Part shown: in pieces, positions 32,567-37,663 of the stretch | Layout of the letters: the number at the start of each line of letters is the position of its first letter | Position numbering within the stretch: position 1 is the first letter of the stretch | Source of the DNA: an uncultured Prochlorococcus sp. | Lineage (GTDB): Bacteria > Cyanobacteriota > Cyanobacteriia > PCC-6307 > Cyanobiaceae | Assembly: GCA_902626435.1 (NCBI GenBank) | Contig: CACOFO010000005.1 | Location: 1-42,168, forward strand | DNA length: 42,168 bases | Reading direction: 5' to 3' | Translations under genes and position numbers: made by a program | The notes under the pieces: model-generated | Told to the model about the DNA's origin: nothing | Database searches by the model: none | Seen by the model: only the letters and a program-made list of their open reading frames with translations

Positions 32567-35023
32567 TCAATTCAAGAAATCATGAATAAATTTATTATCA
32601 GAATTATCAATAAGTATATTCCTTAAAACAATATTTTCTTTTAAATCAGGATCATCACTAATAACCTTAATAGCCTCTTCACGAGCCTTATCAATAAGAA
32701 ATTTATTGTTAGGTAAATTATCCAGTACAAAATCAGGCAATCCGGATTGTCTATATCCTAAAATCTGGCCCGGTCCTCTAAGCTCCAAGTCTTTTTCAGC
32801 AATATAAAAGCCATCATTAGATTTTTGCAAAACGCAAAGTCTTTTATTTTCTAGTCCATTTTTATCGGAGGTTACCAGATAACAAAAAGATTTTGTTGAT
32901 CCTCTACCAACTCTCCCCCTTAATTGATGTAGCTGTGACAATCCAAATCTGTCCGAATTATAAATAATCATAATTGTGGCGTTAGGCACATCAATGCCAA
33001 CCTCTATTACAGTGGTTGAAACCAATATATTAATTTCATTCTCTATAAAAGAATTAATCACTTCATTCTTTTCTTGCGAATTTAATTTTCCGTGCAATAA
33101 TCCAACTTTTTTATTAAAAAAGACCTCTTCGGATAAATATTTAAATATTTTCTTTGCAGAACTTAAATTCATTTTTTCTGAATCTTCTATAAGTGGCAAA
33201 ATCACATAAGCTTGTCTACCCTTAGTGATCTCATCATCAACAATCTTAAACAAGTTACTTAAATCATCTTCTGAAATTATTTTTGTTGTTATGGGAACTC
33301 TCCCAGGAGGAAGTTCTGTAATTTGACTAACATCTAAATCACCATAAATAGAAAGCGCAAGAGTTCTTGGAATTGGTGTTGCTGTCATTGATAACAAGTT
33401 AGTATTTTCTCCTTTATTAAGTAATCTATTTCTTTGACTAACTCCAAACCTATGTTGTTCATCAATTACGACCATCCCTAATGCATTAAAGATGACTTTA
33501 TCCTCAAATAATGCATGAGTGCCTACGAGGATATCAACTAATCCATTGTTCAAATTAGAGAGGATTTCTTTTCTCTTTTTTTGAGGAGTGTTACCAGTGA
33601 GAAGTTCAACAGAGACTAAAAGTGGGTTTAAATAATTTAATAAATTTTTATAATGTTGTTCTGCTAATACCTCCGTTGGGACCATAAAAGCGCCTTGTAA
33701 GTTTTTTTCTATGACAATTAAAAGAGAGGCTATTGCAATTATAGTTTTGCCACTTCCCACATCTCCCTGAAGCAATCTCGACATTGGTTCGGGATTAGAT
33801 AAATCATTCTTAATTTCATTTAAAACATTGACTTGGGATTTTGTTAATTCAAAAGGAAAAGTTTTTAGAAATTCTTTTAGTAAAGATTTCTTTTGAGGAA
33901 ATTGCCTGACAATTACATTATTATTTTTCTTTCTTTTTCTAAGCAGAAACTTTATTTGCAGGAGGAACAACTCATCAAAAACCAAACGTCTTTTTGACTC
34001 AATAAGTGCCTGTTGAGTTGGTGGCAGATGAATATTAATCAAAGACTCACCTTTAGATAATAAAGATAAAGATTCAAGTTGCTTTTGGTTTAAAATTTCT
34101 GGATATTGCTTTGCATAAATTAGTACCTTTTTCATGAGTTTTATAAAACTCGAATTTGATAAAGCTTCAGCTAATGAATACAAGGGCAATATTTTTCCCG
34201 AGAAATTAAAATTATCATTATTACCCTTAAGAATTTCAATCTGAGGATCTACAAAACTCTTGCCATACTCTGTCATTTTAACCTTGCCAGAAATTGCTAA
34301 TTTAGTCCCAGGAGCATACAAAGATTTTTGAGACGCGAAGAAGGAATAAGATCTAAATCTTCTTCCTAAAAAAAATTTTGTAACCTTTATTGAAGAGGTT
34401 TCATCAGTAACTACAAAGTTCATTATTGATAAATTACTATTCTTCGTACTCTTATGAATATAAAATCTTTTAATATTTGCGATGCAAGTATATAAATTAT
34501 CTGGTTTTAAATGAATTATCTTAACTCTATTAGTGTAGTCTAAATAGGTTCTTGGGAAATAATTAATTAGATCTTTTATATTAAAAACACCTAATTCATT
34601 AAGCTTGTTTTTATAAACTTTGCCAACATTTTTTATTAATGAAATATCTGAATCAAGAGACAAACTTGAATCAGCTTTATTCAGAATAATTTTATTAGTA
34701 AGATTATTAGAACTTTCTATTTCTAAAGTTTTACTAAGTTTATAAAGACTTTTTCTTGTATCTATAATTAACCTTTTTCGTTGATTATCATCTAATTTAT
34801 TATATTCAAAATATTTTTTAGAAAATTCATTAAAAGTCCTCAAATATTCGTCTGAGAGATTTAGATTTTCTAGTTTTGTCAATGATTCATACAAATAATT
34901 ATTAAAATATTTTTCTTTTCCTAGCGTATTAATAAATTTGTTTTCCGTTTCAATAGTTAGAGACTTTTGAAGAGGTCTTATCCAATCTTTAATTAATTTA
35001 TTATTATTACCGCTAATAGCCAA
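32567..35023 (-). CDS. recG: ATP-dependent DNA helicase RecG
   Basis: It regresses stalled replication forks and processes branched DNA. The 818-residue protein is longer than E. coli RecG because of an N-terminal extension of about 120 residues, as in other cyanobacteria and plants. The wedge/OB domain (about 130-270) includes LINYFPRTYLDY. Helicase motifs follow: Walker A LLQGDVGSGKTIIA (about 418-431), DEQHRFG (about 520-526), LSMTATPIPRTLA, and the C-terminal LRGRVGRG and LELRGPGQILGYRQSG motifs specific to RecG. The likely start is TTG at 35021-35023; no in-frame ATG precedes it. It lies 21 bases after the unknown gene and upstream of the VanX-like gene. Confidence 0.94.
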   Translation of the reverse strand: MAISGNNNKLIKDWIRPLQKSLTIETENKFINTLGKEKYFNNYLYESLTKLENLNLSDEYLRTFNEFSKKYFEYNKLDDNQRKRLIIDTRKSLYKLSKTLEIESSNNLTNKIILNKADSSLSLDSDISLIKNVGKVYKNKLNELGVFNIKDLINYFPRTYLDYTNRVKIIHLKPDNLYTCIANIKRFYIHKSTKNSNLSIMNFVVTDETSSIKVTKFFLGRRFRSYSFFASQKSLYAPGTKLAISGKVKMTEYGKSFVDPQIEILKGNNDNFNFSGKILPLYSLAEALSNSSFIKLMKKVLIYAKQYPEILNQKQLESLSLLSKGESLINIHLPPTQQALIESKRRLVFDELFLLQIKFLLRKRKKNNNVIVRQFPQKKSLLKEFLKTFPFELTKSQVNVLNEIKNDLSNPEPMSRLLQGDVGSGKTIIAIASLLIVIEKNLQGAFMVPTEVLAEQHYKNLLNYLNPLLVSVELLTGNTPQKKRKEILSNLNNGLVDILVGTHALFEDKVIFNALGMVVIDEQHRFGVSQRNRLLNKGENTNLLSMTATPIPRTLALSIYGDLDVSQITELPPGRVPITTKIISEDDLSNLFKIVDDEITKGRQAYVILPLIEDSEKMNLSSAKKIFKYLSEEVFFNKKVGLLHGKLNSQEKNEVINSFIENEINILVSTTVIEVGIDVPNATIMIIYNSDRFGLSQLHQLRGRVGRGSTKSFCYLVTSDKNGLENKRLCVLQKSNDGFYIAEKDLELRGPGQILGYRQSGLPDFVLDNLPNNKFLIDKAREEAIKVISDDPDLKENIVLRNILIDNSDNKFIHDFLN

Positions 35024-36134: not shown

Positions 36135-36791
36135 CTAGTTTGATTGCATTGATGCAACCTCTTCAGCGAAGTCCATCTGTTTTTTTTCGATACCTTCACC
36201 CAATGTATATCTTGTAAAGCGTCTAACTTTGATATTTTCACCAATTTTTGAAGCTGCTTGTTTAACAAGATCCTCAACAGTAAGTGAACTATCTTTAATA
36301 TAAGGTTGTGAAAGTAAAACCAGCTCGTTAAGTCTTTTTGCTATTCTCCCTTCAACTATTTTTTCTTTAATTTGTTCTGGTTTTCCAGATAAATCATCTC
36401 TCCCCATTTCAATCTGCTTTTCTTTTTCCACAACATCTTCTGGAATTTCATCAATTGAGACGTACTCGACATTTGGGCAGGCTGCAACTTGCATTGAGAC
36501 ATCCTTCAACAGAGATTGGAATATATCACCTCTAGCAACGAAATCAGTTTCACAATTTAACTCTAGTAGTACTCCCACTCTTGATCCAGTATGTATATAA
36601 CTACCAATTGACCCTTCTGCCGCAATTCTTCCAGATTTCTTTTCAGCACTAGCTATGCCTTTCTTTCTTAACCATTCCAAAGCTTTATTAACATTTCCGT
36701 CAGTTTCGTTAAGTGCTTTTTTGCAATCCATCATTCCTGCGCCAGTCTTGTCTCTAAGATCTTTAACAAGTTTTGCTGTAATGTTTCCCAT
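36135..36791 (-). CDS. tsf: Translation elongation factor Ts (Tsf)
   Basis: It regenerates EF-Tu-GTP by expelling GDP. The 218-residue protein has the N-terminal UBA-like domain [24 protein letters not shown], where the [12 protein letters not shown] signature is definitive, and [16 protein letters not shown], then the core with [16 protein letters not shown] (about 73-88), the second signature. The C-terminal domain is short, as in cyanobacteria and Thermus rather than E. coli. It follows rpsB by 44 bases on the same strand in the conserved rpsB-tsf order, so it would share the control exerted by the structured rpsB leader at 37553-37616. Confidence 0.97.
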
Positions 36792-36835: not shown

Positions 36836-37540
36836 TTAATTTTTTCTTTCGGCATTAGAACCTTTTCTACCCTCATTTATTGCATCTGCAAGTCTTCCTA
36901 AAATAAGCTGCACAGATCTAACGGCATCATCGTTACATGGGATTGGAACCTCACACAAATCGGGATCACAGTTTGTATCCAACATTGACACTAGTGAGAT
37001 ATCTAATTTTCTAGCTTCAAGAACTGCATTAGATTCTCTTCTCTGATCAACCAAAACAACTACGTCTGGTAGTCTTCTCATACCCTTAAGTCCGCCTAAG
37101 TATTTTTGTAATCTTTCCAGTTCTCTCCTCAAAACTGCAGCTTCTTTTTTAGGCCTCATTGCTATTGAACCACTACTTTCCATTCTTTCAAGATCCTTTA
37201 ATCTTTCAATCCTAGCTTTCATTGTTGTCCAATTAGTCAACATACCTCCAAGCCATCTTTGATTTACATATGCGGCTCCGCATCTAGTAGCTTCCTGAGC
37301 TACTACATCTGATGCTTGTTTTTTTGTACCAACGAATAGGAATCGTTTACCGCTTTTTGCAGCGTTTCTTGTCCATTTATACGCATTGTTCATACACAAT
37401 GCTGTTTTTACAAGATCTATAATATGAACTCCATTTCTAGCGCAATATATGTACTTAGACATCTTGGGATTCCAACGTCTAGTTTGATGCCCAAAATGAG
37501 CACCAGCTTCCATCATTTCAGATAGTGATACAACAGCCAT
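36836..37540 (-). CDS. rpsB: 30S ribosomal protein S2 (RpsB)
   Basis: It is a late-assembling protein of the small ribosomal subunit that bridges to S1. The 234-residue protein has [27 protein letters not shown] at the N-terminus and [20 protein letters not shown] and [23 protein letters not shown] toward the C-terminus, all diagnostic. The ATG at 37538-37540 has no good ribosome-binding sequence just upstream, and a GGAGG lies 24 bases or more away inside the structured leader. In E. coli S2 represses its own operon through the rpsB leader. The pseudoknot-like element directly before this gene suggests a similar control here, although its sequence looks unrelated. Confidence 0.97.
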
Positions 37541-37552
37541 AATTTCAAAAGG

Positions 37553-37616
37553 GTTTCGGGTTAGCCTCCATCTGACGGGGAATTTATTTTAATAAATCAC
37601 CCGAAACTGTCAGATG
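37553..37616 (-). promoter_or_regulatory. Pseudoknot-like leader RNA of rpsB, candidate S2 autoregulatory element
   Basis: Read on the - strand, the RNA has CAUCUGAC (37616-37609), one A, GUUUCGGGU (37607-37599), a 22-base linker with a small AU hairpin (37597-37582), GUCAGAUG (37576-37569), seven bases GAGGCUA, and ACCCGAAAC (37561-37553). The first and third blocks pair perfectly over 8 bases and the second and fourth over 9, and the order is interleaved, so both stems together make a pseudoknot. Alternatively they are two exclusive hairpins. The element ends 12 bases before the rpsB ATG and starts about 12 bases after the predicted transcript start. Position and GC-rich stems in AT-rich DNA argue for function. 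Confidence 0.75.
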
Positions 37617-37634
37617 TGTGGATTAATTTCAACA

Positions 37635-37663
37635 ATTCTAGCAAGTGATGTGTATTTCTAAAA
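37635..37663 (-). promoter_or_regulatory. Probable rpsB promoter
   Basis: On the - strand a good -10 box TAGAAT (37640-37635) is preceded at 17 bases by a weak -35, TTTTAG (37663-37658). Transcription would begin near 37628, giving a leader of about 88 bases that carries the whole interleaved-stem element. The promoter lies in the gap after the glycosyltransferase gene, so rpsB-tsf can be expressed on its own. Confidence 0.55.

Follow-up and report, generated by a model that had tools for sequence, protein, structure and literature searches.

The leader that precedes rpsB in a 42,168-nucleotide stretch of DNA from an uncultured Prochlorococcus sp. (hereafter the window, meaning the whole stretch that was analysed) is very probably the form that the known S2 (rpsB-tsf) leader takes in cyanobacteria, with P1, an inserted P3 and a pseudoknot, through which S2 would exert translational feedback. 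Judging from aligned leaders, most of the cyanobacteria that we examined keep the fold, and its predicted pseudoknot partners are the strand that follows the P1 5' arm and the strand just after the P1 3' arm. The S2 leader itself has already been described; our additions are the length and place of the pseudoknot, a contrast in Shine-Dalgarno sequences and the failure of Rfam to report the element. Prochlorococcus is a very abundant marine cyanobacterium, and the leader would link control of its rpsB-tsf operon to the S2 circuit of Escherichia coli.

Anatomy of the Leader and Operon

The element lies on the minus strand, 12 nt 5' of the rpsB ATG at 37540, and in that direction it reads CACA, CATCTGAC, A, GTTTCGGGT, a 22-nt AU hairpin region, GTCAGATG, GAGGCTA, ACCCGAAAC, 12 nt and ATG. 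The P1 and pseudoknot stems are each perfect and are interleaved in the order A-B-A'-B'. An earlier note on this DNA had described them as perfect interleaved stems of 8 bp and 9 bp with an AU hairpin between, lying between a TAGAAT box (37640-37635) and the rpsB ATG; coordinates, arms and order are all correct, and the placement is as read on the minus strand. The features are as follows.

37635-37640, minus strand: -10 promoter box TAGAAT, read in the sequence
37617-37620, minus strand: conserved CACA preceding P1, within the CACAC element that the E. coli t44 leader also has
37609-37616, minus strand: P1 5' arm, CATCTGAC (sequence and covariation)
37608, minus strand: 1-nt linker between the P1 5' arm and the pseudoknot 5' arm, a single A
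37599-37607, minus strand: pseudoknot 5' arm, GTTTCGGGT, equivalent to J2-3 of the rpsB motif (sequence and conservation)
37577-37598, minus strand: P3 hairpin region, AU-rich and variable in length (loop fold, and lengths across relatives)
37569-37576, minus strand: P1 3' arm, GTCAGATG (sequence and covariation)
37562-37568, minus strand: conserved GAGGCTA linker, equivalent to GTGGAGGC of t44 (kept in relatives and in E. coli)
37553-37561, minus strand: pseudoknot 3' arm, ACCCGAAAC (sequence, conservation and covariation)
37541-37552, minus strand: 12-nt spacer before the ATG, lacking a Shine-Dalgarno sequence, read in the sequence
36836-37540, minus strand: rpsB, ribosomal protein S2, 234 aa, named from reading its translation and with relatives found
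36135-36791, minus strand: tsf (EF-Ts), the second gene of the operon, named from reading its translation

From the position of TAGAAT we infer that the rpsB transcript starts ~6-8 nt downstream of it, near 37628, which would give a leader of ~88 nt that includes the whole element. Of the 101 parsed leaders from loci L001-L103, 95 have a TA[GAC][AG][AC]T hexamer 12-40 nt before P1. A literature search for a mapped rpsB transcript start in Prochlorococcus returned nothing usable.

Relatives and Counting of Leaders

We take the window's own family as the picocyanobacteria and call the rest of the class the other cyanobacteria. Among named genomes in which rpsB was sought, 80 loci were kept (78 titled Prochlorococcus and 2 Synechococcaceae); rpsB matches were obtained in 282 of 300 genomes of the window's family, in 283 of 291 genomes of the class, in 30 of 30 chosen class members and in 117 of 117 at the phylum level. 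Leaders were extracted from 284 loci; the choice among the matches listed was manual and took one or a few loci from each genus.

Sequence anchors parsed the leaders of 187 of 189 picocyanobacterial loci (162 distinct leaders), the two unparsed ones, L051 and L059, being truncated at contig ends, and those of 66 of 71 other cyanobacterial loci. The five unparsed loci in the latter set are L235, L237, L238, L243 and L244, and their arms, typed by hand, pair over 6-8 contiguous bases. Four loci (L260, L261, L262 and L264) were dropped as repeats of others, and L265-L284 stand outside the counts. Because at least 10 places are present twice among L111-L189, counts of distinct leaders are also given. 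Alignments A1 and A2 place the linker of the window's family one base away from that of the remaining leaders, and the pseudoknot was therefore counted on anchored arms by script. Eight loci (L093, L106, L186, L210, L232, L245, L248 and L259) are mis-anchored in the covariation counts, which lowers the numbers. The shuffle statistics below ignore relatedness and are a guide rather than a probability.

The 20 leaders at L265-L284 come from phylum members outside the class, which are presumably non-photosynthetic. By eye, 7 of them clearly keep the CACACG..GCGGA portion of the motif before rpsB, with a weak or missing pseudoknot; in the others CACACG..GCGGA is doubtful or absent.

Conservation and Compensatory Change

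Loss of the stems in related leaders had been named in the earlier note as one result that would count against its proposal. Instead, both stems are kept: among the 187 leaders of the window's family, P1 has 7 or 8 pairs in 184 and the pseudoknot has 9 contiguous bp in 186. Beyond the family, 53 of 66 other cyanobacterial leaders form a pseudoknot of 7-9 contiguous pairs. The compensatory changes that the note had proposed to look for are present in both stems across Cyanobacteria, with none for the pseudoknot inside the window's family.

The case is clearest for P1. Across 82 distinct arm pairs, two-sided changes occur in 171 cells and affect 7 of the 8 pairs; 92.7% of cells are paired, as against a shuffle mean of 72.6% and maximum of 76.4%, and 0 of 3000 shuffles reach the observed value. 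Within the window's family alone P1 takes 36 distinct arm pairs. The linker that separates the 5' arms of P1 and the pseudoknot is 1 nt long in 183 of 187 family leaders and missing altogether (0 nt) in 60 of the 66 from other cyanobacteria; its range of 0-3 nt over the 253 parsed leaders is partly a matter of construction, as the anchors permit at most 3 nt. Since this linker is 1 nt in the window, there is no P2 there. The unparsed rpsB leader of L243 (genome G318) carries ~23 extra nt after the P1 5' arm and before the pseudoknot arm, which may be a P2 hairpin like that described by Meyer et al. in Alphaproteobacteria.

On the other side of the pseudoknot 5' arm, the P3 region as parsed varies from 16 to 78 nt in the window's family and from 9 to 118 nt in the other cyanobacteria, and its loop folds below -0.5 kcal/mol in 111 of 131 distinct family loops and in 61 of 66 others. 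The linker that follows P1 contains GAGG in 183 of 187 family leaders and in 43 of the 64 other leaders that have that anchor. Upstream of P1, the CACA columns C23, A24, C25 and A26 are invariant in the 36 leaders of A1.

For the pseudoknot, inside the window's family there are 5 distinct arm pairs and no two-sided change, and the covariation test is silent there because the arms hardly vary. Across Cyanobacteria, two-sided changes are found at 4 of the 9 pairs (pairs 1, 2, 3 and 5). Pairs 2-5 are paired at 79.3% over 52 distinct arm pairs versus 70.8% in shuffles (maximum 77.9%), and 0 of 3000 shuffles reach the observed value; for all nine pairs, of which 6-9 are mostly set by the anchors themselves, 1 of 3000 shuffles reaches it, and 20 of 3000 do so for other cyanobacteria alone. 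The two outermost pairs are often missing in other cyanobacteria: of the 47 distinct arm pairs there, 13 form pair 1 and 27 form pair 2 (overall, 17 and 32 of the 52 distinct arm pairs). Whole arms have also been replaced with pairing kept, TTTCGGGT/ACCCGAAA giving way to CTACGGGT/ACCCGTAG in L235 and L237, a comparison made by hand and outside the counts. Other exchanged arms that still pair are TATCGGGT/ACCCGATA in L252 and TTTGGGT/ACCCAAA in L236 and L240.

The pseudoknot arms at 37553-37561 and 37599-37607 are more constant in the 187 picocyanobacterial leaders than pairing alone demands. It is conceivable, though in our judgment unlikely, that in this family they are kept for their sequence, as a contact for S2 or another protein or for a trans-acting RNA, and not for their mutual pairing. 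Such a reading would account for the exact retention of GTTTCGGGT and ACCCGAAAC in 177 of 187 family leaders (153 of 162 distinct) while P1 varies, and for GGGT being invariant across the 36 A1 leaders, which cover the class. Against it, the distal pairs in other cyanobacteria change on both sides and stay paired, and 9 of the 10 family leaders with deviating arms still pair at all nine positions.

We regard as rather improbable a second possibility, this one raised in the earlier note, that the leader is a two-state switch with a single stem formed at a time. In such a switch P1 and the second stem would be mutually exclusive, and S2 or folding kinetics would select an open or a closed form. 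Among folds without a pseudoknot, the most stable one that contains P1 (-19.1 kcal/mol) and the most stable one that contains the second stem in its place (-17.3 kcal/mol) differ by less than 2 kcal/mol, and by the usual geometry of pseudoknots a linker of 1 nt across from a helix of 9 bp would seem to leave little room for both helices to pair in full. However, a strict switch is not needed because the P1 and pseudoknot arms do not overlap, so that exclusion is not forced, and both helices are kept together at the frequencies given above. In the published motif, too, both helices are formed (PMC2704228). The idea that one stem forms at a time thus finds no backing in these leaders.

The interleaved geometry alone is not beyond chance in 42 kb, because, when the whole window was shuffled 60 times with dinucleotides kept, 23 shuffles had at least one pair of interleaved perfect stems, both of at least 8 bp and within 70 nt, and the energy of the leader fold is unremarkable (z -0.98). 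Conservation and covariation across relatives are beyond chance. Although the shuffle test by itself would not have led us to reject chance inverted repeats or a DNA-level element (a terminator or operator) with no RNA function, that explanation is contradicted by compensatory change across the class, by the fixed place before rpsB and by the likeness to two RNA families, and we give it practically no weight. Interleaved perfect stems of this length (8 bp or more) recur once elsewhere in the window, at 34582-34643 inside the long ORF 32567-35023, probably by chance.

The Start Site and Shine-Dalgarno Sequences

In the window's family the 3' arm of the pseudoknot ends 6-15 nt before the ATG, and none of the 187 leaders has a Shine-Dalgarno-like 4-mer between the ACCC core and the ATG, whereas 65 of 66 other cyanobacterial leaders do. 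In 61 of the latter GGAG itself occurs, its first base lying anywhere between 2 nt within the paired stretch and 5 nt beyond it. The sole parsed leader outside the window's family that lacks a Shine-Dalgarno-like 4-mer after the pseudoknot core is that of L245 (genome G554), possibly an independent loss.

The earlier note had remarked that rpsB lacks a proper ribosome site of its own, and the 12-nt spacer indeed holds no Shine-Dalgarno sequence. This is ordinary here: a Shine-Dalgarno-like 4-mer stands upstream of 2 of the 32 long ORFs in the window. With the same few genes around rpsB repeated, loci shorter than 2500 bases omitted and the first ATG taken as the start, such 4-mers precede 0 of 226 long ORFs in high-light Prochlorococcus loci (L002-L081), 7 of 88 in other picocyanobacterial loci (L104-L129) and 55 of 106 in other cyanobacterial loci (L230-L264). 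Prochlorococcus is reported as likely not reliant on Shine-Dalgarno sequences (PMC5607370). In view of that report, and of the 30 of 32 long window ORFs that also lack one, we rejected the missing Shine-Dalgarno sequence as a speciality of rpsB. The GGAGG of the linker was likewise set aside as a displaced Shine-Dalgarno sequence: the position of the GAGGCTA linker (37562-37568) is unsuited to that role, and the block is kept in E. coli as well as in cyanobacteria that have a Shine-Dalgarno sequence of their own.

A Proposed Mechanism

The job of the leader is likely to be translational feedback by S2. We suggest that free S2, surplus to ribosome assembly and perhaps together with S1 as in E. 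coli, would bind the junction of P1, GAGG and the pseudoknot, and that bound S2 would keep the pseudoknot shut. A closed pseudoknot by or over the initiation site would block binding of the 30S subunit, so that rpsB and tsf, and with them S2 and EF-Ts, would be repressed together. Such a block is expected in the window's family because the 3' arm ends so close to the ATG, and in other cyanobacteria because the arm ends between 2 nt inside and 5 nt short of GGAG.

A narrower proposal, which we put forward tentatively and with some doubt, is that in picocyanobacteria, which seem to make little use of Shine-Dalgarno sequences, the S2 leader has come to work as a start-site gate. Its lengthened and nearly invariant 9-bp pseudoknot lies near the place that the Shine-Dalgarno sequence takes in other cyanobacteria, and the opening and closing of that pseudoknot, set by free S2 and S1, would decide the entry of the 30S subunit. 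If so, the near-invariance of the arms would mean that S2 or S1 reads their sequence and not their pairing alone. The occurrence of the same pseudoknot with and without a Shine-Dalgarno sequence offers a natural test of how S2 blocks initiation. Among the papers listed in our literature searches there was no experiment on an rpsB leader in cyanobacteria.

Searches with Rfam and a Cyanobacterial Leader Model

Whether an existing RNA family covers the leader was a question left by the earlier note, and two do match it in place, both below their gathering cut-offs. At gathering thresholds, Rfam gives 0 matches in the window. On the window leader (131 bases searched), RF00127 scores 25.9 bits with E 7e-4 against a cut-off of 44, and RF01815 scores 22.8 bits with E 0.0055 against a cut-off of 40. 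In a longer search of 221 bases RF00127 matches and RF01815 does not, and three unrelated families appear at E 0.99 or worse. When 20 other leaders were scanned together, 3 matched RF00127 or RF01815 at E <=0.1, none of them at gathering, and for the other 17 neither family gave any match even at E 0.1.

Whole-genome scans tell much the same. At E <=0.1, RF01815 has matches in 6 of 59 cyanobacteria (best 28.7 bits). Five of these matches are placed immediately before a listed rpsB, and the sixth coincides in part with a match of model R1 (below); over its gathering cut-off RF01815 has none in the 59 genomes. RF00127 has none in the 59 at E 0.1. The window's own genome shows no match to either family in these scans, which use stricter filters. 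Among 14 named control genomes, RF01815 finds Caulobacter vibrioides only, under the cut-off; with RF00127, E. coli and Thermotoga maritima match, one of the two over the cut-off, and the E. coli leader has a score of 83.5. As now set, the Rfam cut-offs thus leave the element unreported in the cyanobacteria that we scanned (0 of 59 with either family), which constitutes an annotation gap.

R1 is a sequence-only model made from 36 cyanobacterial leaders. It matches 96 of the 100 sources supplied, 36 being the training sequences, with 97 matches in all since two are halves of L199. Of 87 cyanobacterial genomes it matches 75, and 12 of those 75 had supplied a training sequence. A position of rpsB is listed for 55 of the matched genomes, and in all 55 the R1 match ends at most 21 nt from the rpsB start codon. 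The 12 genomes missed belong to four families (f4, f16, f19 and f26), in which some leaders are, by eye, variants. The earlier note had inferred a picocyanobacterial S2 autoregulatory pseudoknot; an S2 leader pseudoknot is supported by its place, the compensatory change and the likeness to RF00127 and RF01815, but "picocyanobacterial" is too narrow for an element matched in 75 of 87 genomes of the class. The E. coli leader escapes R1 under default filters; once the filters are switched off, R1 matches 35 nt in the 3' portion of the E. coli K-12 rpsB leader, correctly placed (10.5 bits, E 1.5e-4 in 701 bases).

Comparison with Known Ribosomal Protein Leaders

The rpsB motif consists of P1 with P2 and P3 and a pseudoknot between J2-3 and a 3' extension after P1 (Meyer et al. 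2009, PMC2704228). The motif is listed in Cyanobacteria, with P2 absent or short there, and five pseudoknot pairs are predicted. In view of that description and of the matches to RF00127 and RF01815, we rejected the possibility of a wholly new RNA family. The leader studied here resembles RF01815 in its position before rpsB, in P1 and P3 and in the J2-3/3'-extension pseudoknot; in the window itself P2 is absent. It differs in that the pseudoknot of the window's family has 9 bp as opposed to the 5 published (PMC2704228), and in that the 3' arm of the window's pseudoknot adjoins the start site.

The S15 and S4 leader pseudoknots of E. coli also belong to ribosomal protein leaders and are able to hinder initiation; they concern other genes and have other sequences and layouts.

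In E. coli, S2, aided by S1, represses translation of rpsB-tsf through the leader, as seen in vivo (PMC10931766, PMC2704228). The review PMC10931766 calls the details of this repression unclear and reports a ribosome binding site located outside the E. coli operator, and therefore the geometry of blocking may differ. The E. coli leader, t44 or tff (RF00127), shares with ours CACAC before P1, GUGGAGGC after P1, a GGGU/ACCC pseudoknot core and the same gene; the CACAC, GGGUG and GUGGAGGC..AACC blocks of t44 are present in order, as judged from the RF00127 alignment and a reading of the E. coli leader. By contrast, the E. coli leader has a longer insert and an AGAGG Shine-Dalgarno sequence of its own, and 24 nt separate its ACCCC from the ATG, against 6-15 nt from arm end to ATG in the window's family.
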